Part shown: positions 1 to 62,715 of the stretch, piece by piece
Layout of the letters: each line of letters opens with the position of its first letter
Position numbering within the stretch: the first letter of the stretch is position 1
Origin: Atriophallophorus winterbourni
Lineage: Eukaryota > Platyhelminthes > Trematoda > Plagiorchiida > Microphallidae
DNA length: 64,000 bases
Assembly: GCA_013407085.1 (NCBI GenBank)
Contig: JACCGJ010001865.1
Span: 86,039-150,038 of the forward strand
Direction of reading: 5' to 3'
Position numbers and translations under genes: made by a program
The notes under the pieces: generated by a model
Seen by the model: only the letters and a program-made list of their open reading frames with translations
What the model was told of the DNA's origin: nothing
The model's database searches: none

Positions 1-385
1 TTAACCTTGAACAGCATGAACTCACCAGCAACGTGACAAACTCTCACGCTCAACATTTGATCTGTCACTGGTCCATAATACACAACTGTCCTCTGTGTGC
101 TCATCGCACGATTATAACTGGAATTTAAAAAAGTGATCCGTTCGGTTTCAATTTTACGTGTCGATTGGAATTTGTGAACGGAATTTGAGACACCTGCGAT
201 GCGTGCACTTCATGCATATGCGTCTCATTCCATGCTCAGAGGCGACTATCGATCGTGTTTCCGTGCACATTGAGAATTAGTTCTCGTGTGTTAAACTGTG
301 CTCAAATCAATCCATGACTTTCGTTGCACGAACCTATTTGATAAGCAGTTACCGAAGCTTAGTTATCAAAATTCTGAGAGTGTGG

Positions 386-2570: not shown

Positions 2571-2675
2571 ATGCAAAGAACTTAGAGTGCAATCGGTTAG
2601 ACGAAGCTTCTGTGTCAGAAGTGAAACGTTACCCAAAAAACTGCTATGACCGATTGCACTCAAATTTCTTTGCAT
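2571..2675. repeat. Inverted repeat, 27-nt arms at 25/27 identity
   Basis: The left arm 2,571-2,597 and right arm 2,649-2,675 are reverse complements at 25 of 27 positions by eye. The 51-nt spacer contains a smaller hairpin (CGAAGCTTCTG/CAGAAGTG). The right arm ends immediately before the ATG at 2,677 that opens the Penelope-like ORF, so this is probably a structural element of that retroelement. Confidence 0.75.
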
Positions 2676-2676
2676 T

Positions 2677-4685
2677 ATGAATACACGATCGGTCCCAAAC
2701 ATATTACAAAAGATTGCTGACTCTTACGAGCCCCGTGTTCAAAAATTACCCAGTGAGTTGGTGAGAACAGCGGGATATGAAGCTAGATGGGTGAACCACC
2801 GCATCTTTAACCTTCGTTGCAAGCAGCGCGGCGTAATACCAAGGGATCTGGTGGTAAAACCTCCGGATAATTCCCACAAATCGACAAAGGCAGCCGCGAG
2901 CGATTCCAAAGTGTTTTTGAAACAAAGGATCCACCGGGTCAATGAAACCCTATTGGTCGCTCGATCGAAAGCCTCGAGAATGATGTCTAAACTGCGATTC
3001 AAATTATCCGAAGCTGATTTCTGCAGGATTTGCGGAAAACACGCGCAGTTTCTAGCCACACAGGCGGAGCGAATAGGAGAAAGACAAAACCGTAAGTTCA
3101 ACAAGTCATTAGAGTTTCATAATAAACGTTGATCAGATTAATCTAATAAGTCATTATCTACCAACTAGTATTCTAGTGTTTCGAATTTATCTAATCGAAA
3201 ACTTTCGCAAGCTGAACAAAGATTGTTGGAGAAGGGCTTAAATTTCTGCATACGTAAGAGCTTTATGAAAGCTGAGGATCTTATTCCCTTTATTGAAGGG
3301 TCATTAAAAGCACTTCCCAATGAACAGGCAGACGCGGTAAGAAACCAAGAACAAGGCGATGCAAACCTTGATTCACACGAAAGACAAGCACTTTTTATGG
3401 TGAAACAAGATTCGAATATAGTCATTACTAAGGCTAAAAAAGGTAAAGTAACGGTAATTTTGAACAAAAGCGGTTATTTAGACAACATTGGGGTACACTT
3501 ATTCGATGGCCCTTATGAACGGATAGATAATGGTAAACTGAAAATGTAATGAATAACAGCAAAATTGTTGTCTATAGGTACTTGCGTGGTTTAACCTGTA
3601 TCCCAAGTTTACTATAACTCCTAGGTTCTACAGCCTACCTAAAACACATGTAGAAGGCATTCCTGTAAGACATATCGTCGACGGTATCGGATCACCTTCG
3701 CACGAGTTAGCATGACATTCGGCTTATTTGTTGAAACCTTTAGTCGGCAATACAGCCTCGTTCATCAAGAACGCATATGACTTTGTAGCACGCTTACAGT
3801 CGGTAGAAATTGATGACAATGGTTAGCTTTGATGTGAGCGCTTTGTTTACCAAAGTCGATACAACAAGTGCGTTACAACTAGCCAGACGGGTCTTGGAAT
3901 CGGATGCCATCTTGTCAGATCGCACAAACTTGAGCGTCCAGCAAATTATCAACAGTGTATCGATCTGCTTAAGCATGAAGCACTTCATATTTAATGAGCA
4001 ATTATATAGACAAAAAGAAGGGTTGGCAATGGGTTCACCGATATCCCCAGTACTTGCGAACATGTATATGGAGCATTTCGAGAACAAAGCCCTTAACAAT
4101 GAAGGGCTCAAGCCAACATTGTGGTGGCGCTATGTTGATGACACATTTGTTATCATCAAGCGAGATCAGTTAGAGGCCTTCTTCAAATATTTAAATGAAA
4201 TAGTCCCATATATTACTGTCACAAAGGAAGTGGAATCCTGTACAGGCACTCTTCCATTTTTAGAAAGTTTAGCAGAAAATTTAGATGGGAAAATAAAAAC
4301 TTCTGTCTATCGGAAACCTATCGAAACAGATGCTGTACTATGATACACTTCCGTTCATCCATGAAAGGTTTTCAGTTCCATAGCTTGTTATATTTTCAAT
4401 AAAATGGAACACCCATGCAGCGACGAAAGGGAGCGAATACATGCGCACCGCGAATGCTCGTAGACCACGGTTATCCAAAATGTTTTGTAAAACGCCAATT
4501 GATGAAGGGAAAATACCCGTCCGAAAAATCGAAGAAAAATTGGCGAGATACATTTTGTATAACGTATGCAAAATGCACCTCTGAAGCAATACGTAGAATC
4601 TTGAACCAGGCGGCCATACGTGTAACTTATCAGAAAAGGAAAACTATCCTTTCGGTTCTGATGCACCTCAATGATAAGACACGGG
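2677..4685 (+). mobile_element. Penelope-like retroelement, 3'-truncated and inactive
   Basis: Retroelement of the Penelope class, which encodes a telomerase-related reverse transcriptase followed by a GIY-YIG endonuclease. An N-terminal basic region is at 2,677-3,132 (CRICGKHAQFL near 3,020-3,060). The RT begins around 3,200 (RLLEKGLNF). After frame breaks, its catalytic part lies in the 3,810-4,343 frame: a YRQKEGLAMGSPISPVLANM block, WWRYVDDTF with the catalytic aspartates, then a TLPFLE and a KTSVYRKP block. A connecting region follows at 4,415-4,680. The GIY-YIG domain is missing: the copy ends where gypsy sequence starts near 4,690. Stops at 3,133 and 3,547 and a shifted frame at 3,550-3,810 make it inactive. 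It matches the copy at 53,825-54,915, which keeps GIY-YIG. Confidence 0.88.
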
Positions 4686-4689
4686 AATT

Positions 4690-6985: not shown

Positions 6986-9930
<2,945 letters not shown>

Positions 9931-16985: not shown

Positions 16986-17024
16986 TACCTGATGAGTGCG
17001 AACAGCACGAAACCGGTTGTGGCG
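16983..17024 (+). ncRNA. Hammerhead ribozyme motif, B type, intact core
   Basis: Complete type I hammerhead layout. The stem I strand CCCTAC (16,983-16,988) precedes core CTGATGA (16,989-16,995). Stem II is GTGC (16,996-16,999) with GCAC (17,005-17,008), closing loop GAACA. Core GAAA is at 17,009-17,012. The minimal self-complementary stem III CCGG is followed by TT, placing cleavage after U at 17,018. The returning stem I strand starts GTGG and pairs with CTAC through one wobble. All core nucleotides I can check are present. It lies directly after the LINE-C 3' UTR and heads a short tandem with the motifs at 17,191 and 17,432. Confidence 0.85.
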
Positions 17025-17190
17025 TGTTTGTGTGTGAAAGAGATGTATGCAAATGAGCTTCCTTATGTAATATCTCGTTTTAATTTATTACGTTTTTACC
17101 ACGATATGTAAAAATGCAAAAAAAGCAAATTACATTATGTTTACCGCTTTTCTGCTGTTTCAAGGTACACTGAACCTGATCATACTGTTT

Positions 17191-17228
17191 CCACCTGATG
17201 ACGGCAAACAGCCAGAAACCGGTAGTGG
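17191..17228 (+). ncRNA. Hammerhead ribozyme motif, A type
   Basis: CCAC (17,191-17,194), core CTGATGA, stem II CGGC/GCCA around loop AAACA, core GAAA, stem III CCGG, then TA with predicted cleavage after A at 17,224, then GTGG pairing perfectly with CCAC. Stem II has one C-A mismatch next to the core; a copy at 51,790-51,827 has T in that place and a perfect TGGC/GCCA stem, suggesting TG-to-CG drift. The next unit begins 241 nt downstream. Confidence 0.8.
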
Positions 17229-17470
17229 TGTGTGAAGGATGGGGATGTGAGCACCACAATACATTGGTCTTTTATATGTACCTCGACCGCTTAGACAGGA
17301 ATCACTTTGTTATTCTGTATTTGAACAACGTAGTTCTTTTTAAGAACCCTATATAACAGTGGCATACAAGTTTAAATTTGTTTACCGCTTTTCCACTGTT
17401 TCAAGTCTCACTGAACCTGATCTTACTGTATCCACATGATGACGGCAAAAAGCCAGAAACTGGTAGTTGT
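17225..17470 (+). repeat. Complete A-type unit with second, damaged hammerhead
   Basis: One 241-nt A-type monomer from the cleavage point at 17,224 to the corresponding place in the next motif (17,432-17,469). That second motif has ATGATGA instead of CTGATGA, losing the essential C3, and CTGG in stem III. The monomer body has the landmarks shared by the family: GAACCCTATATAACAGTGGC, TACAAGTTTA and CCACTGTTTCAAG. Confidence 0.75.
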
Positions 17471-17499
17471 GTGGAAATGTGAGCCCTACAATACATTTG

Positions 17500-28845: not shown

Positions 28846-29198
28846 CTGACCGTTCTTTGGCTAGCATGCAGCATATATGACTAAACTCCTCACGATTGAC
28901 TTGAATTAGGGTTGCATTTTATTAGCAGATATCAGCGCAGTTATTTGCGAATTCGAGCATAAATCCACATTTGAAAATTGAAATTTAGCTAAGTCCCACA
29001 ATCGATGCAATGCAGCACCGGTAACTCTTTGGAATATTCTTCAACATTCCAATATTCCAAAACAGTTGCATGCACCGATGGGGGGCCTTAGGCTAAATTT
29101 CAATTTACAAATGAGGATCATCCTCGAATTCGGAAAATAATTGCGTTCAGCACAAATTCAGATCGGCGTTCGGAATATCAGGTCTCGGATACGCATAC

Positions 29199-29235
29199 CT
29201 GATGAGCGACAAACAACCGTGAAAACCGGTCGTGT
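29199..29235 (+). ncRNA. Degenerate B-type hammerhead
   Basis: CTGATGA at 29,199-29,205 is followed by a weak stem II around a CAAACA loop, then GAAA, ACCGGTC and GTGTCC. The order of parts matches the family, but stem II pairs poorly (GCGA against CCGT) and stem I is weak. Likely a dead isolated copy. Confidence 0.5.
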
Positions 29236-29968
29236 CCTTTCGTCCTGCTTTTAGAACGTCATATACTTACTTATTAATAAAAAATCTGGCTTCAAACAAA
29301 ATAACTCAGAGTCATTGATAAATAACTGCTCTGTTGTTTAAAATCTTGTATGAATGAAATTTGTTATCCACAAATTTTGATATCGGCATTTGTTGCCTCG
29401 AGTGTAACGCTACTGATTTGTGTTATTGATATACGAGTTATCTTGTGTCCACATTTATATGTTGATCAGTTTATTCCTTCGTGATTAGGTTTTATTTATT
29501 CGTTTAAATACCCATTCGGTTATCAAACCAAGTGATTAAAATGTTCGAAGCCGATGATGGACTATAGGTACAATGGATGTGATAAGGTTGGGAGTCAAGT
29601 GCAATTTTCTCAGTGATGTGTGACTGATTTATTATCATGTGTATTCTTTTCGCCTTCATAGCCTATGGAAAGCCTTGTTTTAAAAATGTTGCCACCTTTC
29701 CTTTTTCATGCATTTGTTTCAAGTAAAAACATGCTTCACTCTTTAATTCATCATCTATATGAACAAACATAACATTACATCAATTAAACCTTTAAATTGC
29801 ATATACTGCATAGCCAACTCTCGATAACGCATCAATGTTTGCTTTTCTACCCTTAGTGGACCGTAACTTCCTGGCTTCCTTCCGTACAAATGGGCATTCT
29901 GGATATTGAATTGAATATTCATTTTTGTGTTTGAATCTAAAAGAGATATTATTTTCCACATCTCTCAG

Positions 29969-34377: not shown

Positions 34378-34622
34378 TACTTGTATGCCTTTAATCCACT
34401 GTTTCAAGGCTCACTGAACCTGATCTTACTGTCTCCACCTGACGACGGCAAACAGCCAGAAACCGGCAGTGGTGTGTAGGGATAGGGGATGTGAGCAAAC
34501 ACATTACTTTGGTCTCTCCATAAGCGCCTTGAGTGCTTTGACCAAGAATCACTTTGTGATTCTGTGTCTGAACATCGGGGTTCGTTGTACGAACCCTATA
34601 TAACAGTTGGCATACAAGTATA
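34378..34622 (+). repeat. A-type hammerhead repeat unit in alpha-catenin intron
   Basis: A full A-type unit in the sense direction of the gene. The motif at 34,435-34,472 reads CCAC, CTGACGA (allowed, since the fifth core base is variable), CGGC/GCCA, GAAA, CCGG, then CA instead of TA. Losing U16.1 should block cleavage. A perfect hairpin GGGTTCGT-TGT-ACGAACCC lies at 34,578-34,596 in the unit body. Confidence 0.8.
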
Positions 34623-36913
34623 ACCTTGGAATATGCGAAGTTTTCATGCAACGTTGTCCTTATTAGGACAAGTGTGATGATCGTTTTATTTCCTCACAAT
34701 TGTTATCACGAATAAAGGAATGACCAGCATGTCGTTTGACCTCTCGACTCTAAATAACACTTTTGACAGCTGCCTTAAAATGTCGTAAAAGCGAAGCGAA
34801 GACCTTTCAATATCGGTTGACCCCGATTTAAGCACATTGAATATGTGGATTATTTGTCTCTCGACCATTTTAATAGATTTTCGTAATGAAGTCAATTGAA
34901 TTTGTATCGATAATCAACCTTGTTTTTTTACTCTTCTTGCATTTTTGTCTGTCATAGAAGTAGCGAATATTGCTTTGTATGACCACAACATTCCTCCCGC
35001 AAGCAGTAACATTTCATGTACTATGCACAGAGATACGCTTATTTAACCGTCTTGATAATCTGCACTCAGCAGCTAACATCAATACTCGCCCTTCTCCGAA
35101 TTGAAGCACGCGCAATTTCTCATGTTGATTTCATTTTGCAAATGGAGATAAAATCGTTTTTGGCCTCTTGAGGCTAGCCGTCCGCCAAACCAACGGGTCC
35201 ACACTTCAAGTTTAGATTGCAGAATGTGATTTTCATCAAATGAACAAATAAATATTGCGACAGCAAAGCCCATTTTCTATTACACGACGTGGCTAAAATT
35301 CAAATAACTCATCTCCCATTTCGGACCAACGTATTGTCATGTGTTTCACACGTAAATTCCTGAATTCTTCTGCAAGAGTGTACGCCCAATAGACACGGAA
35401 TTAGGACTCGGTAATGATTGATTTTTCAACATACTTGCGTTACATCTATTACCACACTTATATACTCAAAGGTACGCTGCAGAAGTGCATCTGGCTATTT
35501 AGTTTTGGCGGCCGTCCCTGGTAATACTCTGTCTTGGTTGATACCTAGTTTACATCTTGGTTTATTGAGAGCTGTTTAGGAGCGGTTGTAACGAACGTGC
35601 GGAGTGAGTTTGATCCCGACACTGAAATCGGATTCAACCTTTGTTCCCATCATTCGCACGTGCAAAATTGGCACCGAAAATAATCGGGAATATATCGGTG
35701 ACTACGTAACACCGCTACGCGATATTATTTAACTTGTATCGCTTCGCATAACAGAAATCGGAGTTAAGTAACAGACCACGGGGCTGTAGTGACCTGGTGA
35801 TAAGAAACGAAACCATGGTGGGACATTACAGCTAAATATTTTCCAGCAGAGCTGGGCTGTGATGTGCTGTGATTAGTGCTCTCTCAAATGAAAGAGGCGC
35901 GCAAACTGCTGTATTGCCCGGTCATTATAATGTTCGAAATCGCTTTTTAAAACGCCGAGTTATGTATTTGTTTTTGGGCAGTCTAATCTATAGATTATGC
36001 ATGTTGGAAAAATGAGACCAATGTTCTATGCAAACACGAACTCTTGGTACTGGCGTTGAGGAAGAACGCCGTTGATGTCATTTTAGGTCTAAATAATGGA
36101 ACTATCTAGATTAAGCTCTTTGCTTGAATGTTTATTTAACTAAGCAGACTATTATGAAGTGTCTTAAAACTTCGAGTCGATTTTTCTGCATTGGTTTTGG
36201 CCACACCCAACTCCGCATGACCTGAAATTCACGAATGGTGTCCTCGTATTGATCTGGATATCTAATGGAAAACCGTTACGAGTGAACTATCTATAAACGA
36301 CACGTATCGTATTACTAGATTAGATTGTTTGTTAGGATATGCATTTATTTAATTTAATCAATTTTTCAGGCAATACTTTTGATTATTTAACAGTTTTGTA
36401 ATAATTGACGAGGCGAGGCCACATAACCGTAAAATCCACGTCGTGAAAGTCTTACACAAAACTTCTATGAATCCACATGAAAAGTTTAAATGTTACAAGT
36501 CAGTCTGTTTGTTTCCATAAACATTTTTACTTCTTGCTACTTATGTTCATATAATGACTTTATCTTGATTCATAATCGTTATGGGCACCGATGGCTGGTT
36601 TCCCTGGGTATTAAAGTGTAGCACACGTGTAATCACTTAACTTCTCGCTTATGAACGCGGCTGATTCCACCTTGTTCGTATCATGTGTTGGTACTTTGGT
36701 GCTTCTGTGACTTTGAGTATTCCATGAATATTAAATTCTCGTGTTTCTATTCGACATGTAAAATACATTGAAGTCTTTCAATTCACAACTGCTCAATCGT
36801 GGAAAGTTTTATGTTCACACTTGCCACGGTTTTCTCAACTTAAACCTAAACTATCCCACCTGATTAAAGATCATTCATACGACTCGTACATTTGATCTGC
36901 GTCCTCGTTTCAG

Positions 36914-38790: not shown

Positions 38791-39059
38791 TTATTTCCAC
38801 ATACCTGGCACTCAGTTCGGGACTGTTGGGGCAAAATTGGTTAAAAGCCTATCTCTAAAAGGATCTACATTCCGGCCATCATTATCTTCCGTTCGCCACC
38901 TTTACTTGGTCGTCAAAATTCCACAGTTTCATTTGACAATCTAGCGTTCAAGTTGACTTGTCTGCGGTTACTCTCGTAAACACATTGTGAAGGATGCAGC
39001 ATTTGTTTTAAAATATCTAACTTTTAAAAGTGCTTGATTTAAAGTCATATGTTGCCCAC

Positions 39060-39520
39060 ATCACCCAAAATTACATTCCACTACCGGTTTCTGGCTGTTT
39101 GTCGTCATCAGGTGGAGACAGTAAGATTAGGTTCAGTGAGCCTTAAAACATATCACTTTGGTAATCCATAAGCGCCTTGAGTGCTTGACTACGAGTCACT
39201 ATGTGATTCTGTGTTTGAACATCGTGTTTCGTTGTACGAACCCTATGCAACAGTAGCATTCAAGTATAACCTTGTTTAACATTTATCCACTGTTTCAAGG
39301 CCTACTGGGCCTAATCTTACTGTTTCCACCTGATGACGGCAAACAGCCAGAAACCGGTAGTTGAGTGTAATTTCAAGGAATGTGATCAACACATCACTTT
39401 GGTCATTCATAAGTGCCTTGAGTGCTTGACCACGAGTCATTGTGTGATTCGGTGGTTGAACATCGTTGTTCGATGTACGAACCTATGCAACAGTGGCATT
39501 CAAGTATACCATTGCTTCAT
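39060..39520. repeat. Inverted pair of A-type hammerhead units in alpha-catenin intron
   Basis: A minus-strand motif at 39,078-39,115 (core CTGATGA at 39,111-39,105, GAAA, CCGG, TA, GTGG against CCAC intact; stem II weak, CGAC/GCCA) is followed by plus-strand unit sequence. That unit has its own motif at 39,326-39,364 (CTGATGA, CGGC/GCCA, GAAA, CCGG, TA; stem I weakened to CCAC/GTTG). The plus unit body continues to about 39,515. The two motifs could base-pair with each other in a long transcript. Confidence 0.8.
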
Positions 39521-39826
39521 TTAAATTTTTTACATTCAAAATTTAAGTACATAATAAATTAAATAATGATTGATTCGAGAAGCTATTGAATTTCAACAGA
39601 GAGGGAGCATGAGAATGCAAAATCTTTATTCGAAATTTCAGCTCGACTACAATGTTTAACCAAAAGCGCCACACGTTTATGGGGAGACATCATAATAAAA
39701 TATAACTCAAAGTATCAATGAGCTAACTGTTGTTCTCTGGGATTCTGCATCTGCCCTTCTTAAAAACTATTTACCTCTTAGAAAATTTTGATTATTACAT
39801 CTCTCCACAATTTCTTTCACTTTCAG

Positions 39827-45235: not shown

Positions 45236-45748
45236 GTGAAATCGCGAACTTGTGTGTCAGCTTTGCGTATCCAAACATTGCTGCAAATCTCGTATTCACG
45301 TCATGAAATAATCGGTATTGACTGCTTGCATTTCTCTTATTTGAGGTAGATCCAATAAGGCAGATTTTCGGTAGCAAAGGATGGTTTTTCTTGTTTTACT
45401 GGTTCAATCTCAAATGCGCTGGTAAAATACGACAGTTGAGTTTGCTAGCTCATCACTCCCTGTCGCATTGATTTCACTAGCTAGATAGAACTATTCATGG
45501 TTAATACCTTCTAACTTGGCATTTTGTCTGGCTCTTTGCACTTCGTCTGGCTCCAGACTTGTGCTTCATGATGATGATGAATACCTTCAAATGTGTTCTC
45601 CTGTCATCCACACATTACTCATCTGCTGCACCTCATTCCACACTGAGTTTGTTGTTTAGTTCAATATGCCTTAGTAAATTTTGTTGTCGCTACCAAATAA
45701 AACCTCGTGGCTGTTGACTGAGCTTTCCAACGATTCTCTTCGTTTTAG

Positions 45749-46041
45749 TAACCACTCCATTTGCACGCGAAGTTGTTCCATCATTGAAAGACGAATCCAC
45801 AACCGCGGAGAATCGACAGGCGATGTATAGTGTACTGTCGAGTGCCGAGAAAGAGACTGTTTCGAAAGAGGTGGCTTCGTTTGTACAGGAACGAAAGCAA
45901 TTGATGTCAGAAGTAGGTCAGTGGGAAGAATCGGGAAATGAAGTGATTACTTTGGCAAAAAAGATGTCAATGATTATGATGGATTTAGCCGATTTCGTTT
46001 GCGAGCAAGGTCCTTTGAGCACGATGGACGATGTGCTTACG
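45749..46041 (+). CDS. CTNNA: alpha-catenin, exon 9 of those seen (actin-binding domain start)
   Basis: Acceptor CGTTTTAG, donor GTTAGT; 293 nt, phase 1 to 0. LSSAEKETVSKEVASFVQER corresponds to the vertebrate LPQEQKAKIAEQVASFQEEK. QWEESGNEVITLAKKMSMIM and MDLADFVCEQGPLSTMDDVL match WDDSGNDIIVLAKQMCMIMM and EMTDFTRGKGPLKNTSDVI. The latter is the most diagnostic stretch for alpha-catenin versus vinculin. Confidence 0.96.
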
Positions 46042-47188
46042 GTTAGTTGTATTGCGACATTTTTGATCGGAAATTATCATTGCTTTCGGTTTCAAACATT
46101 ATGTCTTTTTTCGTATTTATTAATTAATTTTCGAAGTGACCTGTATTGGGAGCGTAAACTTACCCGTTCCATGGTCGAAAGCTTTCAGTGTTTTCCTTGC
46201 TGGCTGTTATTTTTTCAATTTATCAAGGGCAGGGTCGGTTTATTTATTACTGCGATATTTTGTTATAATATTGTTTTTATTATGTGTCCATGCTTTTTAT
46301 AGCGTATGTGCAAAGTCGTATTGGAAAGGTTTTTGATTGAATCGATTTGCTCCTAGCTTATAAGGTACTTTTTAGTGATTTATTGGGACCAAAATGTGTG
46401 TGACCTTTTATTCATTAACTCAGAAGCCGTTATCCTAACTTATAAAAACAGCTCTAATCACTGATTGTATAGAAGTTTAATCTGTTTCTAAACAATAAAA
46501 ACAATCCGATTTACTGATTGGTTTGAATTCTGAAAAAATTTAAACTCCCTCCATTGATTTGAAAAGTTTCTAGAAATTATCGATCAACGCAACGCTCATT
46601 CGGTAATCGATAATCGGAAATTCCGTTTCTATTGAACGGTTGTTTCACAGTCAGTTGGCTTTTTCAACTTGCTTGAAAACTTTCCGGAGAAATTGCAACA
46701 AAACAATGTTTAACCCTTAGCCGGCAATAAGCTGTACATGCGATACGATTTCACCTACTAACCTCGATACTAGTCAGACGCCGTTATTTTTCCGAATATA
46801 TTTGGTGGCCATTTTACACTATGGGTTTGAATGCCGGCTGCCAATTTTAAGGCATGCTGTTCTTTACCATCATATCATCATAAACTCTATCCTACACACA
46901 CGCATACACCTTACACTCTGTAGACCTTGGGAGCTAGCTGTCCTGTCCACGACACTAAATTATATGGTTCAGTATCTGAGGTTAGCACTCTATAGATAGT
47001 CATGTACCTTGCTGGCGTACGGGCTTAACGCTTACATCAGCCTATACTCTGATCTCATGTATACCCGTTCCGTAAAACGACGTCACACACCTCTGAAACT
47101 GCTGTTTTCACTTATCCATACAAACGTTACGCCATCTTCAGTAATTCACCTTGTCACCGATTATTTTCTTCCATTGTCCAATCTGCAG

Positions 47189-47413
47189 GCTTGTCAACAT
47201 ATTTGTGAATTGGGTCAACGTTTGTGTGACTTGTGTAAGAAAATCGCAGTGATGTGTCCGGAATCGTCGAATCGACGAGATTTGCTTATTTACCTGGATC
47301 GCATCACGCTGTGTTGCCACCAGCTGAAAATTACTGGCCGTGTTAAAGCAGGTGTCGATGGAGCATCGCGTAAAGTGGTTAGTTCACGTCAGCTCGTTTG
47401 TCATGCAATTCCT
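47189..47413 (+). CDS. CTNNA: alpha-catenin, exon 10 of those seen (actin-binding domain)
   Basis: Acceptor CAATCTGCAG, donor GTGAGT; 75 residues, phase 0. IAVMCPESSNRRDLLIYLDR and ITLCCHQLKITGRVKAGV match the vertebrate IADHCPDSACKQDLLAYLQR and IALYCHQLNICSKVKAEV. The family's short GGELVVSG linker is replaced by DGASRKVVSSRQ. Confidence 0.96.
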
Positions 47414-47664
47414 GTGAGTATAGCTGTTAAAGTAGCATTTGAAGCGCGTAATTTTCTATCACATGTTTTTCACTTCAAGCCAACTTGAAACACTGATGCA
47501 GTTAATTTTGTTTTCTAACGTAATGGTCACCAAATGACCTAGAATGAATCTCGGAAAATCACCTGTTCAATTGCACAGATTGCACACCTGGAATTTTCTA
47601 TCAATTGCATTATAGTGCGTTATATTTATTTACATAAGAGCATTCGACCAGATTCTAGCAAATG

Positions 47665-47775
47665 AGGTTTACGCTTGAAAAAGCTCATTTGCATGCATTT
47701 CCACCACACACCCTACGACCGGTTTCGTGCTGTTTGCACTCATCAAGTCGGGGCAGTAGAATCAGGATCCGCTCA
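47665..47775 (-). repeat. B-type hammerhead repeat fragment, antisense in alpha-catenin intron
   Basis: Minus-strand motif at 47,711-47,757. Stem II GTGC/GCAC is perfect around AAACA, followed by GAAA, CCGG, TC and GTAGGG; the opposite stem I strand is CCCGAC, with one mismatch. The core reads TTGATGA, so the essential C3 is lost. Downstream (minus strand) is the B-type tail with GGAAATGCATGCAAATGAGC. Confidence 0.8.
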
Positions 47776-47827
47776 TTTTTGGTTAATCGTTAACGCTCAC
47801 TCAGTTCTGATTTCGCGAGGTGAAGAA

Positions 47828-47905
47828 AATGCTGTGGTAGTGCAGCGGTTAGGACGCGCAACATTCAGTTGACCTGCCCTGGTTCGAATCCCATCGCTTG
47901 CTAGG
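47828..47905 (+). repeat. tRNA-like sequence, probable SINE head
   Basis: Contains a good A-box-like element (TAGTGCAGCGG near 47,839) and a perfect B-box (GGTTCGAATCC near 47,881) at tRNA-like spacing. The acceptor and T stems do not pair well, so a functional tRNA is unlikely. It resembles the Pol III promoter head of a tRNA-derived SINE. It lies between two antisense hammerhead fragments. Confidence 0.5.
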
Positions 47906-47994
47906 AAATGTGTTTAACATACTCTTTACCACAAGCAGATGTGTAATGTGTACCGACGATAAATCCACATTAATATTCATTTACATCACACGCA

Positions 47995-48060
47995 CACATC
48001 CCATGAATGGCCTCGTACTGTTTGTACTCATCAGGTACTGACAGTATGGTTAGGATATGC
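47995..48060 (-). repeat. B-type hammerhead fragment with GTAC stem II
   Basis: Minus-strand core CTGATGA (48,034-48,028) is followed by GTAC, loop AAACA and GTAC, a four-base stem II that keeps pairing with different bases from the GTGC/GCAC copies. The next core is GAGG instead of GAAA, so it should be inactive. Confidence 0.7.
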
Positions 48061-48199
48061 ATGCCTTGAAACCAAATTCAGCATAATAACTGCGACATTC
48101 AAGCGCCCTGTCCAATGTGTGTATTCCTATCACCTTCGAAGTTTCTTGCTAAATAAATTGAATAGAAACACCAGTCATGTGAGGATTTAAAAAATCTCG

Positions 48200-50109: not shown

Positions 50110-51770
50110 ATTGGTCATTCAAACTATTTTTTGATTGGTCTATCCCGGTATATATATACTCATATTAACAAGTTGGCCGTAATGAAATATTATGAAAGGA
50201 AATCGGAATTCGACAAGAGTATCAACAGCTCAGAATTTAAAATCGCAAAGTAGATCAGAATTCTCGCGTTGTTTCCACACATTTGGCGAAATACACTTTT
50301 CTGGTGTTGCAGATCCTTCAAAGGTTGGTTTCTTCCTCTTGATATTGTACTTTTTCTAATCTTTCATTAAATCAAACTGCGAATAGAGTCATGCATTACT
50401 TACACAAGAGAAATAAATGATTACAAAGTTATTAGCTCCTGATTCAAAAGGTCTCCGTTCAACATCCGCGTTGTTAATGAGAACCTGACAAATATTGCTT
50501 CAAAATCACCGTGGCCTTTATGCCTAGGACTAGGCGAATATAACTGAATAATGATTTATAGGATTCAAATTTCTCCACCAGAACCCAATCCAACTGTTTC
50601 CACCCGATGATTTCAAAAGATAGTATCATGTACTGAATCATATGAAACCGAAAGTTGAAAAACGAAAATCAAGTTCAGCACGATCCGACAAAACTTCGCT
50701 AGGATGGATATTATTTCGCCATTGGCAGACGCGTCAAATTTTCCTAGCTTAGCATTCTTTGAGAATAGCTTTATAAAGTGAATGGGATCCATTTATCCAT
50801 GAAGACCATTCTCGCAAGAGCCAGCCAAGTATTCGTAAGATGGTTCCTGACTTTTCATCTCGCATATGTTCGTTTGAGCCATACCACTGAAACAATCTCG
50901 CGATTGAGTTACGATTTGAAATTGCGTTTGCGTGCAATGTTTCCGGTATATAGAGGAGCCATTCTGGTATTGCACAAGTTCCGCAAATTTCACCAGTATT
51001 ATGGATAAAGTTAGCATATTATTTTCTCAAAAACTTTCGGGCGCTTTCGATATATGTCATTGGATTTCACGTCACGGTTTATAGTAGCACCCTGAGACTT
51101 GCAGAAGGATGAAGATTAATCTCGTCATCCACGGCATTAATTAATTCATTTCCACTGCGTAACCCAATTCTGATAACAATGATAGCGCAACCGTCAACGT
51201 TAGGCTATAACATTTTAGGTAACGGAAGAATAATTAGTGGTCGAAGAAAACGATTTAAAGTTACCACATGGGTCATAGAATATGCGTCTGTTTTGAATCC
51301 AAAGTAAGGAAGGTCAAATCGGCTACTTGGCCAATGGCAACTTGGCTATCGAATCGAATTAATGCGAACCTTTTTGCCGCTGGTGTGTTATTGGGTCAAG
51401 GATGAAAATCAATAGGTATTTTACGTTAACAATGAATAATTTCGTGGCTAATACGAGTGAGTTTCCTACGTATCAGTGATATGCAGAACCGAAACTTTGA
51501 AAGAACCGATAGAAAGCCAATTTCTATAGCGTGCTTGTGCTAATGTCTGCACCCCGCCAAATCAGGATTTGTCCGCATCTGCTTTTTCGAACTTGGCCGT
51601 TTAGTCACTTTGTCGTTTGACAACGTTGCGGATCAGTATCACATGATTTTTAGTCTCGTGGAAGATTATTGGACGTATGTACTGTGGTATCTAGACCTCG
51701 TTGAAAGGATCAATTTCCTTATTGCTTTTTAAATGTTTAATTAAACCTCATTATTGTATTTTGGTACTCA
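50110..51770. other. No recognisable gene
   Basis: Intergenic. A scrap near 50,575-50,630 (CCAACTGTTTCCACCCGATGA) may be a worn A-type hammerhead unit. Nothing else recognised. Confidence 0.35.
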
Positions 51771-51774
51771 CATT

Positions 51775-52110
51775 CCCATCCCTTATACACCACTACCTGT
51801 TTCTGGCTGTTTGCCATCATCAGATGGAGACAGTAAGATCAGGTTCAGTGATCCTTGAAACAGTGGAAAAGCGGTAACCAAAGTTAAACTTGTATGCCAC
51901 TGTTACATAGGGTTCTTACAAAGAGCCACGATGTTCAAATACAGAATCAAAAAGTGTTTCAAGGCTCAATAAACCTGATCTCACTGTCTCCACCTGGCAA
52001 ACAGCCAGAAACCGGTAGTGGTGTGTAAGGGATGGGGATGTGAGCAACACATCACTTTGGTCATCCATAAGCGCCTTGAGTGCTTGACCACGAATCACTA
52101 TGTGATTGTG
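51775..52110. repeat. Inverted pair of A-type hammerhead units
   Basis: The minus-strand motif at 51,790-51,827 has core CTGATGA, perfect stem II TGGC/GCCA around AAACA, GAAA, a minimal stem III CAGG, TA, and stem I CCAT/GTGG with one wobble. Its unit body runs up to about 51,950. A plus-strand unit follows at about 51,955-52,110 whose motif has lost the six bases TGATGA, leaving CCACC joined to TGGCAAACAGCC. Confidence 0.8.
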
Positions 52111-53820
52111 TATTATTGGACGTGTTTTTTCGTATTATTTACCTTTGATCATTGTAAGCATCTCACTAACAAATACCTCGATTTTTCAAACACGCGGATT
52201 ATTCGGAAATGATGATCTAGATATGTTTGTGGACTCCCATTTTTGAAATTTGGGTTATGTATTATTGCTACTTACCAATGTTTCATTTGGTCTCGTTATT
52301 TTGTGTTCCATAATTCAGTAGCCTTTTGAGAGGCAGGTTGGTCCTGTCAGCGTATGATACGTGTGCTATTGATCATTTTTCATGTTCTTCTCAGGTTATC
52401 TTTGTCAATTTGTCATTAATAGCTTCCAGTATTTAAAAATGGCTACAACCAACTTTATCATATTTTGATTTCTCTAAACTATTAGTGAACATTGGTAAAT
52501 GAGCGATAATTTCGTAAGTGGGAAAGAAACAAAATGATTGTAATCCTAATGTCGTAAAAGAATGTGAGCAAAGTGTGAATAAGTCAGTGTACGATGAAAC
52601 AAAACATCAAATGAAAGTTCCTGTAATTAATTTGATAAATTCATAAAGATGGATATATATTTCGAGTGTTTAAGCAAGGCGGGTTCAGAAGGCACTACCT
52701 GGAGTAATTAGGCTGGACCGAAAGATAACGCCATTCACGCGGGCTCGCCTCATAAACTTTTTGATATTTAAATCAATAATGAAATGTTGGCTATAGGAAC
52801 CCAAGTGGCAAATCGAAAGAGAAAACGATTTCATGCAGGAATTCACTTATGATACACCAGTCACCGTAATGTGGGCGGTAAATGTTTTCGTTATTTACTA
52901 AATTTGAAAAGGATATGGATATAATTGTCTATGTCTCCATTCCAACAATAATGAAGATTTCAGTGTGCTCTGTCATCAACCTTGCTTTGAACCAAGTTTA
53001 AGCACCGGGAACCAATAGTCCCACCGTTACAAAATGAGAGATAATAAAATGTTTCTTTGTCAATCCATAGTTCAGAATTTATATTAGGTCAAACTTATGA
53101 AGTATACAACATAGTGATGACGCAAATGACTGAAATGTTCTGAAATGTAATATTAAACCACAAAGGGAATAATTGATGTATTGGTGCTAGTGATTAACAC
53201 CTATTTTCGTGGAGGAGACATCTTCACATGTACGTTCACTTGTGATGTGAACAAAATTAATGAGAATTGTATTTACGTATTATAATTAATTGGAAATTTT
53301 CGTAACATTGAAGCCTTGACAATTGCAGTCATCTGAGTCAGTGTCGACAGAACTTGTCGGCGTTTATTTGTGTTAGATTTATATAACTACACGCTATGCT
53401 TGGCCAATGAGCTTGTCTTCGACTAAATGACTTGACCCGCTTAGCCTAATGTACGCCATTTAACGGTAAGGTTGGGTACGGATGTCGGATTGAGTGCTAC
53501 GTAAACATGTTCTGTACTGTGAGTATGACCCTTGGTTTGGAGAAAATTCTGCGTCTAAATCGGAGCGCTACCCAAACTACTAATACCAATTGTCATCTAC
53601 ATTAATTTAAGATAAGATACACACATGTACGTATTATGGGACTAATTTTGAAAAAAGAGTATTTGGAATACATGTATATGCGTGTCAATATCCAGACGAT
53701 AGTTATGTGCTGCGATTCAATTTTGCTGTTTTATAGATATCTTATACCGTACATGCGGTGTCTGACTGATGGTTTTATTTATCGTATTCAGCTGTCTAGA
53801 GGGGGTATTTAAAATGTAAC
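52111..53820. other. No recognisable gene
   Basis: AT-rich intergenic DNA without convincing frames, repeats or RNA genes. Confidence 0.35.
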
Positions 53821-53824
53821 ACTG

Positions 53825-54915
53825 ATGTGTAAATGAAATGTTTGTCCAAAGTAGCATTACACTTATCCGAAGGCCCGTATGAATCATCAGATTATAGCAA
53901 ACAAAAACGAATTATTGATAACTGCAAAATGTTTGTTTGTGTTACTTACATGGATTGTGGTATAACATATACCCAAGATCCAACTACATGTTAAGGTTTT
54001 ACGGTTTACCAAAGATACACAAAGAGGGCATTCTTCTTCGAATAATCGTCGATGGGAAGAGTTACCCTCCATATGATTTTGCTAGGTATCTCGCTCGTTT
54101 GCTGACACCGTTAGTCGGAAATACGGACTCATTCGGTAAGAAAGCCTTCGACTTCGCGACACACTTAAGGACCGTATCGACAGAACACGACGAACTTGTA
54201 GTTAGCTTTGACATGAGCGCTTTCTTTTACAAAAGTTGACGCAACCAGTGCGTTACAAATCGCTAGAAGGGCGCTGGAAGCAGACGCCAGTTTGCAAGAT
54301 CGCACACATTTAAGCGTTCAGCAAATTATTAACGGCACTTCACTTTGCTTGAACATGAACTACTTCCTGGCAAGTGGACAGTTATATAGACAGAAAACAT
54401 GATTGTCAATGGGTTCGTCTATATCCACAGTTTCAGCAAATATGTATATGGAGTACTTTGAAACTAAAGCACTGGGCATTGGAAAGATTAAGCCCGAGGT
54501 GTGGTGGCGTTATGTTGATGACACATTTGTCATCAACAAATCAATACGGGTGACATATAAGAAAATTAGAAATCTTTGCTCGGCCTTGGTACACCTCAAG
54601 AGTAGCTCAACAGATTGTGTTTATAGGATCGAGTGCAAGGATTGCTGTGGTGTGTACATAGGACAGACATCCGGGGATCTTTATACCATGATCGAAGAGC
54701 ACAAGAATCGCTTAAAGAAACGGCCACAAAATGAGACAGCTTATCAGTCTCTAATCAAATTACTCAGTTTTAGCTGAACGTGTGTTGAACACCGACCACA
54801 ATGTGGACCTAGAAAACGTAGATGTGCTGAGACGTAGCATTAGGCCTTATGTGAAACGCCTGTATGGAGAATCAGTGGAAATCACAAAGGCTGGTAGAAT
54901 GCAGTCAACAAAGTA
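53825..54915 (+). mobile_element. Penelope-like retroelement fragment with GIY-YIG endonuclease
   Basis: Second copy of the element at 2,677-4,685. It enters within the RT (LSEGPYE near 53,870) and continues RFYGLPKIHKEGILLRIIVD (near 53,995-54,050), then a frameshift near 54,235. MGSSISTVSANMYMEYFE and WWRYVDDTFVI (catalytic pair) follow at 54,406-54,540. The sequence then jumps from just after YVDD to RVTYKKIRNL, an internal deletion of the RT thumb. The endonuclease is clear: CVYRIECKDCCGVYIGQTSG and EEHKNRL at about 54,615-54,710, including the Cys-containing segment just before G-V-Y-I-G that is typical of the class. A TGA at 54,402 and frame breaks inactivate it. Confidence 0.9.
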
Positions 54916-55299
54916 GATGAGGCAGAGATCTCCACGATATGGCTCACGGCACCAAAACGGACATTTTAAGTTGAATTTATGTTTATATTTAATAATATTT
55001 GCTACTCAAATTAGTCACGTTTTGCAACACACGTTTAATAGTGCACATGTGGGCGAGTATCAATTGATCTTGACCGAATTCACGCCTCGCTGGGTACGTA
55101 GGCAAACCGATCCGGTGTTTTTTTACATGTCTTGACATCCATAGGATTTCAATAGGCTGTTCAGTAGTGTGATCATTTAGAGGTGATGGATGTAGTGATA
55201 TTTAATTAGGTTCTCTCTTCTGACTTGGTCTGACTAAGCTTCTCTGTCAGTGAATTTATACATATACAGTAATATAGGAAATTCTTTGTTAATAAAACA

Positions 55300-55530
55300 T
55301 TGAGCTTGAAAAATTGTTATTTGCATACATTTCCATCAAACGTGTGTCCACATGCGATTAAACAGGTTAGTTGTGCCAGCCTAATCCAAAAGTGAATTAA
55401 AATTTCACACTTTTATTTACCACTTCTCCCCTGTTTCAAAGCATTCGGATGTTGATCGTACCGTTCCCATCAGATGGGTACAAGCAGCACGAAACCGTTC
55501 TTGGCGTGTGTGTGTAATAGAAATGCACGC
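55300..55530. repeat. Rearranged B-type hammerhead repeat
   Basis: A short antisense piece (TTTGCATACATTTCCATCA, near 55,322-55,341) joins a sense unit body. The sense motif at 55,465-55,505 reads CAGATGG, GTAC/GCAC, GAAA, CCGTTC. The core is damaged at two positions. It lies about 400 nt downstream of the Penelope-like fragment. Confidence 0.65.
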
Positions 55531-56870
55531 AAAAATGGATTTTGAATTAAGGTTTGTTGTTCAAAATATTGTTCGTTTATGTATAAGTGATCCTCGCATT
55601 TGAAAATTCAAAAAGGGGGCATCAACGTTTCCAATTTCATCTAGAACAGTTTTTTTTCGTCTTTGAGTTCCTAATTCACTAATCATAATTCACTCCTCTA
55701 GTAGTCGGCAGAAAATTATTCGTTTATTCCTATGAAACTAAAATCCTTCCGCGTCAACAGAATATTTTGTGATCTATAAACTTTTAATAAAACTTTCACA
55801 TACCTGTCAATAAAGTTGTGTGAACAAGGCTGGATCGATCAACGCTGATGAAAAATTTATAAAATCAAATTTTCCACCTTACTCGTGAAAGCTAATAAAA
55901 CCAGATACCCTCATACCATGACAACGCATAGCTAATGAAAATCCAAGAGCCGTGATTTTTTGTGTTTCCGGTTAGTTTATGTTGGTAACTTTTGTGCCTT
56001 GGCCGGAACTCTCCTGAGAATGGGTGTGTCCGTGTTATGCATCAGTGAAAATTGTATTTTTTTAAATATTGTTGTAGAATTTGAGCAGCATTTTTAAATT
56101 GGAATATATTGAGTAGAAAATCATAGTCAACGCATCCAGAGAGAGGCTCTGATTGCATTTTACAAATACCACGAGGTAAATGTTTATGGATTTCATAATT
56201 TGATGGGTTTTTCGCGATGCGAGGCAGGAAACCGTACCGTCGTTGAAATTTTATACCCACGAGGGCTGCTAAATATCATGTTAAATTGACGATATAATGT
56301 GCCGAACGTAATTGGAGGTGGAATACATTATACTTTGATGAGTGATTTTGACAGAGTAAATTTCCACAGAATACCTAAAACCTACCATGCGTTGCTTCGA
56401 ATATCTGTGCTAGCCATGATATTAGCTGGATCTTAATATAAAACATTAAACTCAATTTGCCTAGTATTCGACTGATATTTTGACACCTATCGCTTGCACC
56501 ATCAAAACGAATGCAATAAATAACGCATGAGCTGAAAATTGAATGCTTTAAGCTTTCATTGACTCGAAAGGTTCACATACCCAAACAGGCATTATTCCAA
56601 TCAGCCGCTCGTATTGTGTATCAGACAGTTTTCATGCCTTTCGAACGGCCTTGAATATCGTCGGTATGACGGTGTTCAAGGCTCACTGAAACTATTCATA
56701 CTGTCTTCACTCTTAAAATGATCTAACGTGTGTGTTGCTTCTTCATATAACACCACATTAAATTTATTTGATTATTTTACAATTAAGTGAAATCAATAAA
56801 TATCGAACTAAGATCACTTTACCGTCACATGACTCCTCACCGTTTTCATGCATACATACATATACATCAA
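55531..56870. other. No recognisable gene
   Basis: No gene seen. 56,670-56,720 (CAAGGCTCACTGAAAC, TACTGTCTTCAC) is a scrap of the A-type unit without its ribozyme core. Confidence 0.35.
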
Positions 56871-57349: not shown

Positions 57350-58185
57350 AATATTTAAAAATATTATTCAACACCTTCCAACGCGAATCTCACACTATCC
57401 AACAATACCAAATTCAACAATGAAGTCATGTTCAGAACTTGCGTGCTACAGACTTGCGAACAACAAATACTGCGACAGAAATTTTGATCACGAAAAACTG
57501 TTAGTTTTGGTTAGCTGCGTCGCGCCTAATTTGAACTATATGCGATACCACAGCAGTGATGTTGTCTGAATGTTATTGATGTATTGAATGAACCATGGAA
57601 AAATTACAAAGCAAATCAAATCACTTGGAGCAAGTCCCCCAAAAGATTAGTTTAAAGTTACGCTTATTTTAGAATAATGTTAGAGAATGGATCTATTAAT
57701 ACGATGTAAAGTTTTGTCTGCTCAATCAAAATTGTTCACGCTATCCTTATAAAAATAAGTAAATAACTGCAAACAAAATATTGTGACCGTATCACATCAT
57801 TTCATAAAGTTCCTGTACAGAGTCATCTGGCAGTTAATCACGAATGCTTTTTCAATGCGATATTAGAATGCATAATTTTCGGAAATTCCGTAGCAATATG
57901 CGGTTTATGATTAGTCAGAACTGTTCATCTGCTGGTACCTCACATTAGTAACGATTTGAACATTCTATTTAAAGTGTGACCAGCGCTTATGTTTAACAAA
58001 AATGTCCTTCTCCAGCAAGTTGCTGCCCATCATAAATAGTCTTTGATCATACACAGCAGGTTCGAAGAACCAACTTGAACACAACAAATTGAATGAAAAT
58101 TGCATGCTCTGAATAAAAATTTAATGAATACATTTCTTGAAACAGCATGAAACTCGGGGTAGGATAAGTGATGCAAATGCACAGA
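57350..58185. other. No recognisable gene
   Basis: AT-rich intergenic sequence between the transposase fragment and the hammerhead array. Confidence 0.35.
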
Positions 58186-58337
58186 AATACGATTTTTCCT
58201 TTCACGCTATTGGTTTGACTCGATCAACTCTTAATTGGTTTGCTCGTGCCAGTATTTTCCAACAGTGCCATAAAAATTCACGCATTTTTTTACAATTCTT
58301 CCACTGATTCAAGGCATTCTGATCCTGATCGTACCTT

Positions 58338-58379
58338 CCCTAACTGATGAGTGCAAACTCCACGAAACCGGTCGTTGGG
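58338..58379 (+). ncRNA. Array hammerhead 1
   Basis: CCCTAA, CTGATGA (58,344-58,350), GTG/CAC stem II with enlarged loop, GAAA, CCGG, TC, then GTTGGG. Cores intact; stem I has three G-C pairs with internal mismatches. Confidence 0.75.
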
Positions 58380-58569
58380 TGTGTCATGGAAATACCTGCA
58401 AATGAGCTTTTTCGTTCAGGGTCACGGGTTTAAACCATGTCTATATATGAGTATGTCTCATATGATTGAACAGCCTGGTCGTACCAACTTTATCCAACAG
58501 TGGCATACTAGCACAACTTGTTTACCATTCTTCCACTGTTTCAAGGCATCTTTATCCTGATCCTACTGT

Positions 58570-58611
58570 CCTTACCTGATGAGTGCAAACGGCGCGAAAC
58601 TGGTCGGTGGG
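58570..58611 (+). ncRNA. Array hammerhead 2
   Basis: CTGATGA (58,576-58,582), stem II GTGC/GCGC (one U-G wobble) around AAACG, GAAA, CTGG (wobble in stem III), TC with cleavage after 58,605. Both cores intact; stem I CCTTAC/GGTGGG is partly paired. Confidence 0.75.
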
Positions 58612-58808
58612 TGAGTGTGATGAAAATGCATGCAAATGAGCTTTTTGAGCTTTGTTGGTCATGGATTTAAACCCAATCTACATGAGTGTGGGCTCATGTA
58701 ATTGGACAGGCTGGTCGTACCAACTTTATCCAACAGTGGCATACAAGCAAAAATTATGTTTAACCTTCTTCCACTGTTTCAAGCGTATGCGGATCCTGAT
58801 CCTACTGT

Positions 58809-58850
58809 CCTTACCTGATGAACGCGAACAGCACAAAACTGTTCGGGGGA
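58809..58850 (+). ncRNA. Array hammerhead 3 (damaged)
   Basis: CTGATGA (58,815-58,821), ACGC/GCAC with two mismatches, then AAAA instead of GAAA and CTGTTC. Losing the first G of the second core should abolish activity. Confidence 0.65.
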
Positions 58851-58993
58851 AGTGTGTGATGGTAATGCATGCAAATTAGCATTTTTGTTCATGGTTATGG
58901 GTCGTACCAACCTTATCCAACAGTGATATACAAGCGCAACGTATTTACCATTATTCCACTGTTTCAGGCGCATGCGGATCCTCACCCTACTCT

Positions 58994-59035
58994 CCCTACC
59001 TGATGAACGCAAACAGCACGAAATCGGTCCTGGTG
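58994..59035 (+). ncRNA. Array hammerhead 4
   Basis: CCCTAC, CTGATGA (59,000-59,006), ACGC/GCAC weak stem II, GAAA, TCGG, TC. Cores intact; stem II retains two pairs. The preceding unit is the short 185-nt one. Confidence 0.65.
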
Positions 59036-59223
59036 TGTATTTGTGATGGAAATGTATGCAAATAAGCATTTTTGTTCCCGAACATGTGTTTCAAATTATC
59101 ATGTTTGGGCACATTGGGTTGAACAGGTTTGTCGTATCAACCTTATCCATCAGTGTCACAGAAGCTCAACATGATTTCCATTCTTCCACTGTTTCAAGCT
59201 CATGCGGATCCTAATCCAACTGT

Positions 59224-59265
59224 CCCTACCTGATGAGTACAAACAGCGCAAAACCGGTCGGTGGG
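59224..59265 (+). ncRNA. Array hammerhead 5 (damaged)
   Basis: CCCTAC, CTGATGA (59,230-59,236), GTAC/GCGC, then AAAA in place of GAAA, CCGG, TC, GGTGGG. The last unit ends near 59,310. Confidence 0.65.
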
Positions 59266-59310
59266 TGGGTGCGATAAAAATGCATGCGAATACAGATTTT
59301 TGTATTGAAC

Positions 59311-62299: not shown

Positions 62300-62715
62300 C
62301 TTTGGCTTACTAATCATAGCACCACAAACGCTTGTATGCCAATGTTGTGTAAGTTTGGTACGACCAACCTGTTCAATCGCATGAGCCCCACTCATGTAGA
62401 CTGGGTTTAAAACCCACGACCATGAATATCAAAGCTCATTTGCATGCACTTCCATCACACACACACCACGACTGGTTTCGTGCTTTTTCACTCATCTGGT
62501 AGGGACAGTACGATCAGGATTCACGTGGGCTTGAAACAGTAGAAGAATGGTAAACAAAGGCGTGAACTTGCATGCCACTGTTGGAAAATACTGGCACGAG
62601 CAAACCAATTCCGAGTTGATGGGGTCAAACCAATAGCGTGAAAGGAAAAACCGTATTTCTGTGTATTTACATCACATATCCTACGACGAGTTTCGTGCAT
62701 TACAAACACTATATT
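62300..62715 (-). repeat. B-type hammerhead unit in a TRPM intron, antisense
   Basis: Minus-strand motif at about 62,466-62,507: CAGATGA (one core change from CTGATGA), a shortened stem II, GAAA, CCAG, TC, and GTGG. A second, partial motif lies near 62,685-62,700 (GCACGAAACTCGTCGTAGG on the minus strand), so one whole monomer of about 215-220 nt is flanked by hammerhead halves. The plus-strand body includes the reverse complements of GGCATACAAGC and CATGAGTGGGGCTCATG-type landmarks. It fills most of the 599-nt intron between TRPM exons ending 62,287 and starting 62,887. Confidence 0.82.

Follow-up and report, generated by a model that had tools for sequence, protein, structure and literature searches.

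The window analysed here, a 64,000-nt stretch of an Atriophallophorus winterbourni contig (JACCGJ010001865.1), holds exons of a vinculin-family gene on the plus strand (45718-46302 and 47000-47488), which we take to be alpha-catenin-like, together with an integrase zinc-binding piece of an LTR element (4662-5009, plus strand), a perfect (GTA)34 repeat (8660-8761) and a run of 1,000 N (27846-28845). Two remnants of Penelope-like elements lie on the plus strand, one with N-terminal, middle and reverse transcriptase pieces (2650..4343), the other with a reverse transcriptase fragment and a weak GIY-YIG endonuclease match (53858..54990; 16.9 bits, under the Pfam cutoff of 22.6). Near the end of the window, at about 58145-59305 on the plus strand, we found a degenerate tandem array of five same-strand hammerhead-like motifs, which starts inside a ribozyme (GCATGAAAC) and stops about 44 nt beyond the last predicted cut.

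A block of 99 nt occurs five times in this array (starts at 58286, 58518, 58757, 58942 and 59172). The spacings derived from it are 232, 239, 185 and 230 nt, and they bear out the five tandem motifs described in an earlier note on this DNA; the bounds given there, 58190..59310, are corrected to those above. The motifs start at 58344, 58576, 58815, 59000 and 59230, with cuts predicted after 58373, 58605, 58844, 59029 and 59259, and each copy is laid out as a stem I strand, CUGAUGA, stem II, (G/A)AAA, four nucleotides and UC. No open reading frame of 110 aa or more is present within the array, and the G+C content here is 43-46%. The pattern CTGATGANNNNNAACNNCNCRAAA, with at most two mismatches allowed, matches the window 12 times where 0.18 matches are expected, and a strict descriptor (core, fully paired stem II, GAAA, four nucleotides, UH) finds four loci in the window, two of them inside the array, against 0.03 expected from 60 Markov-resampled sequences. 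Because the expected counts are only 0.18 and 0.03, a chance origin of the array is ruled out, and the five motifs are one homologous family rather than independent events.

The motifs were scored with a covariance model, R1, built from 45 ribozymes from other loci of the same genome and none from the window. Motif 1 (58344..58373, plus strand) has an intact core, four of six stem I pairs, three of four stem II pairs and the sequence ACCGGU (60.9 bits, E = 2e-16). The core is also intact in motif 2 (58576..58605, plus strand; stem I 4/6, stem II 4/4, ACUGGU; 53.9 bits, E = 3e-14) and motif 4 (59000..59029, plus strand; stem I 4/6, stem II 2/4, AUCGGU; 51.3 bits, E = 2e-13). In motif 3 (58815..58844, plus strand; stem I 4/6, stem II 2/4; 34.0 bits, E = 4.4e-8) and motif 5 (59230..59259, plus strand; stem I 4/6, stem II 3/4; 54.2 bits, E = 2.5e-14), GAAA is replaced by AAAA; the guanine lost is presumably the catalytic G12, and both motifs are probably dead. 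None of the five has the full 6-bp stem I, all five carry stem mismatches, and their predicted minimum folds are, by inspection, not hammerheads. The array looks like a decayed relic that is mostly dead. With two of the five cores mutated and the stems and folds in this state, it is very likely that the window motifs are now inactive and form a neutral relic whatever the rest of the family does, but the core letters are kept in three of them (motifs 1, 2 and 4) and dimer formation might rescue some. The earlier reading of a ribozyme array was right in kind but missed this relic state, the probable need for a partner copy and the connection to Penelope. As that note did, we infer that the array may yield self-cleaved monomers or small circular RNAs.

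Recognition of the motifs by Rfam, the check that the earlier note proposed, failed: there are no matches at the gathering threshold in the whole window, and lax mode reports only two of the five array motifs, at 15.4 bits (the best in the window) against the Hammerhead_1 cutoff of 34. Hammerhead_1 (RF00163) comes closer on well-kept relatives, with 14 matches in loci L014 and L018 (32.9 bits, E = 4.3e-5), just under the cutoff, which no member of the array's family reaches in L012, L014, L016 and L018. The stem III loop region of these relatives is 2 nt shorter than in the Rfam model. R1 recovers all five array motifs (E from 4e-8 to 2e-16) and finds 17 places with E below 1e-6 in the whole window; it leans on sequence likeness, and hence shows kinship more than fold. 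As for membership in the type I hammerheads, the family has the core CUGAUGA, GAAA and UH together with stems I and II. A further hammerhead-like motif on the plus strand (CTGATGAGCGACAAACAACCGTGAAAACCGGTC; 29191-29239), scoring 24.8 bits with R1, is possibly a distant family member. On the minus strand of L016 is a canonical type I hammerhead that belongs to another family (3509-3553; 36.4 bits, above the Rfam cutoff).

The whole genome (537 Mb in 15,840 contigs) was searched for relatives. Used as a query, the array finds at least 106 places, while two motif types are far more numerous: the A-type motif, with at most two mismatches, has 12,084 matches and the B-type motif (CGGC AAACA GCCA, CCGGTA) 11,878, each with a reversed-pattern control of 0. 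The exact motif pattern has no match in viral contigs. A well-kept A-type unit reads CCCTAC CTGATGA GTGC AAACA GCAC GAAA CCGGTC GTGGGG across the ribozyme. Long arrays that were fetched have a period of 237 or about 233 nt and contain many near-perfect ribozymes, and TRF counts 42 copies over 10 kb of L009. The unit, for which we use the term retrozyme, is a repeat of about 233-237 nt with one predicted minimal type I hammerhead ribozyme each. Copies of the family are very numerous and scattered through the genome, some of them in tandem, and to judge from their letters the good ones hold the full core and stems I and II; among these many thousands of repeats the window array appears ordinary and not special. 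The earlier assignment to the satellite or retrozyme kind, as a type I hammerhead repeat, is confirmed by a genome full of such repeats.

The long arrays score equally for the single and the double period (237 and 473), which is what unequal crossing over could give, and the array might accordingly be seen as ordinary satellite DNA grown in this way, with no part of the ribozyme in its spread. We consider this improbable, since thousands of matches over many contigs, as well as the preferred ends and target duplications described below, need a copying step. Crossing over may lengthen arrays even so.

Conservation of the ribozyme was assessed in 105 non-redundant copies. In these the 13 catalytic columns are conserved at 0.916 against 0.859 for the rest of the unit (25 of 10,000 random draws as high), while stems I and II, at 0.816, fall below the latter value, and the complete ribozyme stretch of 42 nt comes 64th among 203 windows. 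A single stem II pair differs between subfamilies in both of its bases (U-A in 66 copies, G-C in 15; paired 0.87 against 0.64 expected), and most other ribozyme pairs do no better than independent columns. On 45 sequences the covariation is modest, with 82.9% of cells paired against 80.6% after shuffling (0 of 500 shuffles as high), and the other four measures were matched by 29 to 434 of 500 shuffles. Covariation adds little beyond stem II. At its base, stem II of the B-type ribozyme has a C opposite an A (CGGC...GCCA; 13 of 99 alignment rows), which is odd for so abundant a motif.

The "CCGG-like stem III" of the earlier note holds for its letters and not for a hairpin: stem III consists of the bare palindrome ACCGGU, decayed in some copies, in which a single closing pair would leave a four-base loop that is itself palindromic. 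A pair of 42-nt cores is predicted to fold together as a nested dimeric hammerhead in which every stem forms, at -32.3 kcal/mol (the cofold minimum); a single core constrained to the cis hammerhead fold reaches -11.5 kcal/mol. Once 4-6 nt of flank are included, the best cofolds deviate from the exact dimeric hammerhead, the B-type consensus cofold did not give one, and circular folds of six units show no unusual stability (z from -1.56 to +0.35). Because the palindrome is too short to close on itself, the predicted ribozyme would work in pairs, and it is probably of the dimer type that needs a partner copy. The accessible text on amphibian retrozymes, which have a weak helix III and a palindromic loop, describes them as cleaving best as dimers (PMC7229834), and invertebrate retrozymes are described as mostly having a stable helix III (PMC7761336), a tendency from which the present family departs.

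The nucleotide profile of the family marks 18 pieces in the window. A dispersed A-type copy on the minus strand (62326..62698) matches 58145-58512 at 82% and has the same 5' start, and its other end falls into the second (tail) class of ends treated below. The array start at 58145 and this copy at 62698 thus share a start point inside the ribozyme within different flanks, which may reflect a truncated source common to both or a local duplication. A degenerate A-type copy on the plus strand (55309..55556) lies directly 3' of the second-named Penelope-like remnant and a decayed pseudo-LTR hammerhead (about 55225, by eye). Two A-type fragments are on the minus strand: one (47678..47785) reads TTGATGA...GAAACCGGTC, with the first core base changed, and ends 42 nt beyond the cut, and the other (47965..48075) is decayed and was found by the profile and by R1. 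Between them, at 47831-47895 on the plus strand, is a tRNA-like stretch with GGTTCGAATCCC that is perhaps a tRNA-derived SINE; ARAGORN with bacterial settings reported no tRNA in the window. B-type copies include two tandem units (17138..17476, plus strand) adjoining an A-type motif at 16989, a copy with its end in the tail class (34379..34628, plus strand) and two head-to-head inverted pairs. The first of these pairs (39041..39523) consists of a minus piece (39041-39149) and a plus piece (39150-39523), with a 7-bp ATTTAAA repeat at the ends (control 16 of 300); the second (51767..52114) is likewise arranged minus then plus.

Insertion boundaries were studied in 30 inserts (14 paired, 16 single), which were hand-picked from 52 hit groups together with the window array and L046-L053. 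The list excludes duplicates, groups longer than 900 nt, groups truncated at a locus end and numerous short fragments; many of its loci had been chosen as array flanks, and L046, L047 and L048 for their inverted neighbours. Of 44 outer 3' ends, 36 fall into two intervals measured from the cut, 23 at +35..52 against about 3.4 expected if uniform and 13 at +130..161 against about 6 (expectations computed by hand, for intervals set post hoc). Eight ends lie outside both intervals, and one is within 10 nt of the cut. Among all 50 uncut ends of the hit groups, a set positioned by hand in which two insertions are counted twice, 17 are at +35..62, 15 at +130..165 and 2 at most 10 nt from the cut. Six of the 50 are found at +8 to +15, mostly in B-type or old copies aligned to the A-type model, and may be an end class of their own or the result of broken alignments. 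The plus pieces of five A-type copies, picked from the first twelve places listed, all end at +42 to +47, and the window array ends at +44. Insertions tend to stop at one of two preferred positions, about 43 and 150 nt downstream of the cut. Where an insert runs through the cut and stops 43 nt further on, this implies that its RNA template was either a circle closed by ligation or a multimer left uncut, and not a free cleaved monomer.

Nearly half of the listed inserts (14 of 30) are head-to-head inverted pairs, abutting or near-abutting, and all 14 run minus then plus. One end of each class is present in ten of the 14 pairs and two ends of the same class in none; in L033, L040, L048 and the pair at 51k of the window the end classes are unclear or intermediate. 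The inverted piece of L049 is only 17 nt, read by eye. Opposite-strand retrozyme neighbours within 1 kb are also arranged minus then plus, in 4 of 4 cases among the matches listed (by eye). Flush direct repeats of 9-13 bp, the putative target duplications, border the inserts in six of eight small fetches (by eye, L046 12 bp, L047 9 bp and L050 12 bp; by script, L048 9 bp, L051 13 bp and L052 9 bp), and L049 and L053 have no clear one. Non-flush repeats of 8-10 bp also occur in the same small-fetch stretches. Neither the window array nor most other window copies show a clear target duplication. In a test of 16 inserts, including one of Penelope described below, only the Penelope insert and the window copy at 39041 have flush repeats that fewer than 20 of 300 random placements equal; two inserts in L035 have longer repeats that are not flush.

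Head-to-head inverted inserts also arise with LINEs, by twin priming. The repeats might therefore be SINE-like and moved by a LINE, with the inverted copies made by this known route and the likeness to Penelope coincidental, and other reverse transcriptases do exist, one of them (Pfam RVT_1) in the window at 20678-22048 on the plus strand. We regard this as unlikely, given that there are two preferred ends, of which ten of the 14 inverted inserts combine one each and none has two of a class, that no A run longer than about 5 is present at 31 insert ends, and that insertions occur in or beside Penelope pseudo-LTRs (pLTRs), as shown below.

The Penelope-like element of this genome has 150 scored reverse transcriptase matches with frames open up to 837 aa, and its tandem copies are spaced about 2,840 bp apart in four contigs. 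The pLTRs of the tandem copies L044 and L045 contain a hammerhead-like motif of their own (GGTCTGACGAAGC...GAAACGTTACC, by eye), whose pattern GGTCTGACGAAGCTTCTG...GAAACGTTACC has 4,950 genome matches; Rfam in lax mode did not report it. Published Penelope pLTRs carry type I hammerheads, according to the accessible parts of PMC11167929 and PMC7761336, and the copy at 55309 comes after a Penelope remnant, so the array repeats could be solo or tandem pLTRs of the Penelope-like element itself. This candidate was dropped as very improbable: the tandem pLTRs of L044 and L045 hold a different hammerhead-like motif and have no sequence in common with the retrozyme unit.

A single Penelope insert was resolved completely. 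It lies in L041, within a retrozyme copy, and is itself head to head, with ends at two sites 42 nt apart (positions 854 and 896 of L044) and the duplication CAATCTAC of 8-11 bp, 11 letters matching in all (control 4 of 300). Penelope copies in L038 and L039 end at 855 and 858, and L039 also at 896; that region has 18 Penelope hit ends, of which 3 fall at 854-858, 5 at 896-904 and the other 10 at neither site. Opposite-strand neighbours of the Penelope motif within 1.5 kb run minus then plus in 4 of 5 cases among the matches listed (C280 is reversed), by eye. The retrozyme end classes are about 105 nt apart, compared with 42 nt for Penelope, and the end sequences are unlike. When the flanks of 28 retrozyme inserts were joined into empty sites, five were in or beside Penelope pLTR or ORF-start sequence, the left bound of L047 being inaccurate in this test. 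Penelope sequence flanks both sides in L047, L050 and L051 and one side in L036 (at 1240) and at 55300 of the window, against a background, in 231,516 sampled bases, of 1.28% pLTR and 5.7% any Penelope piece. The arrays of L024 and L029 both begin at a junction, 91.6% identical between the two, that contains an (AT)n run as well as an inverted Penelope copy; this neighbourhood was therefore duplicated.

Published Penelope inserts are described with head-to-head inverted pLTRs, target duplications of 8-10 bp and a 31-bp tail on one end (PMC3846280, accessible part), and in vitro a purified Penelope protein starts at two internal sites of the RNA and extends both strands (PMC11167929, likewise). 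Retrozyme and Penelope insertions seem to have one architecture in common, and the scars support, short of proof, mobilisation by the Penelope enzyme. We think it likely, from these sequence traces, that the window array is a decayed member of a large non-coding family of non-LTR retrozymes that a Penelope reverse transcriptase copies in trans. Tandem transcripts would cut themselves at GUC, acting as pairs, and the resulting pieces of about 233 nt would be closed into circles by ligation or would stay multimeric. This RNA would be copied in trans by the reverse transcriptase/endonuclease of the genome's own Penelope-like element, which would nick both DNA strands about 9-13 bp apart and prime internally at two places, about 43 and 150 nt beyond the cut. 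The two cDNAs would be joined head to head, and travel of the enzyme round a circle or along a multimer would generate tandem arrays. Retrozymes may thus stand to Penelope as SINEs stand to LINEs, with trans copying that starts at two fixed sites in the RNA, one for each nicked strand, and runs across a healed or uncut ribozyme site, and with a tendency to home to Penelope pLTRs; for this fuller scheme we see the chances as evenly balanced.

Insertion scars such as these offer a physical test of what mobilises animal retrozymes: wherever a genome has retrozymes as well as Penelope elements, one can tally where inserts end, their target duplications and head-to-head joints, and how often pLTRs are hit. 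Penelope has been proposed as the mobiliser from its co-occurrence with retrozymes and from the type I hammerheads in both (PMC7229834 and PMC7761336, in their accessible parts). Among the titles and abstracts found in our literature search, which covered few subscription papers, none reports these retrozyme insertion scars. New here are the retrozyme end sites, the head-to-head pairs, the 9-13 bp duplications and the Penelope pLTR neighbourhood, and the tie to Penelope is the part worth following.

Several known systems resemble the repeats of A. winterbourni. The accessible text of Cervera and de la Pena 2020 (PMC7229834) places platyhelminths among the retrozyme hosts and names Penelope as candidate helper, but does not mention an insertion architecture like the one seen here. 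The metazoan non-LTR retrozymes described there likewise have a type I hammerhead in tandem repeats of 150-450 bp, a low G+C content (<50%), arrays from dimers to dozens of units and Penelope elements in the same genome, all as here, and target duplications of more than 4 bp, a criterion for them, correspond to the 9-13 bp repeats in six of eight small fetches. Most invertebrate retrozymes reportedly have a stable helix III, which is a tendency and not a definition, whereas the present family has the bare, shorter ACCGGU palindrome. In this respect the family is closer to the amphibian satellite and axolotl retrozymes (PMC7229834, accessible text), which also combine a weak helix III with a palindromic loop and cleave better as dimers; these are longer, about 330-350 bp, and stem III here looks shorter still (by inspection, the two being likened by description). 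Minimal or absent helix III and possible dimer cleavage are also ascribed to Penelope pLTR hammerheads (Cervera 2014 and Lunse 2017, as cited in the accessible parts of PMC7761336 and PMC11167929). The schistosome hammerhead repeats and W-elements (PMC8490949, likewise), likened by description only, are hammerhead-bearing satellite-like repeats, some with autosomal copies. Penelope-like elements themselves seem to have their insertion architecture in common with the retrozyme described here, but they encode an ORF with reverse transcriptase and GIY-YIG domains, whereas the retrozyme unit has no ORF, a different hammerhead and no relation to the pLTR.
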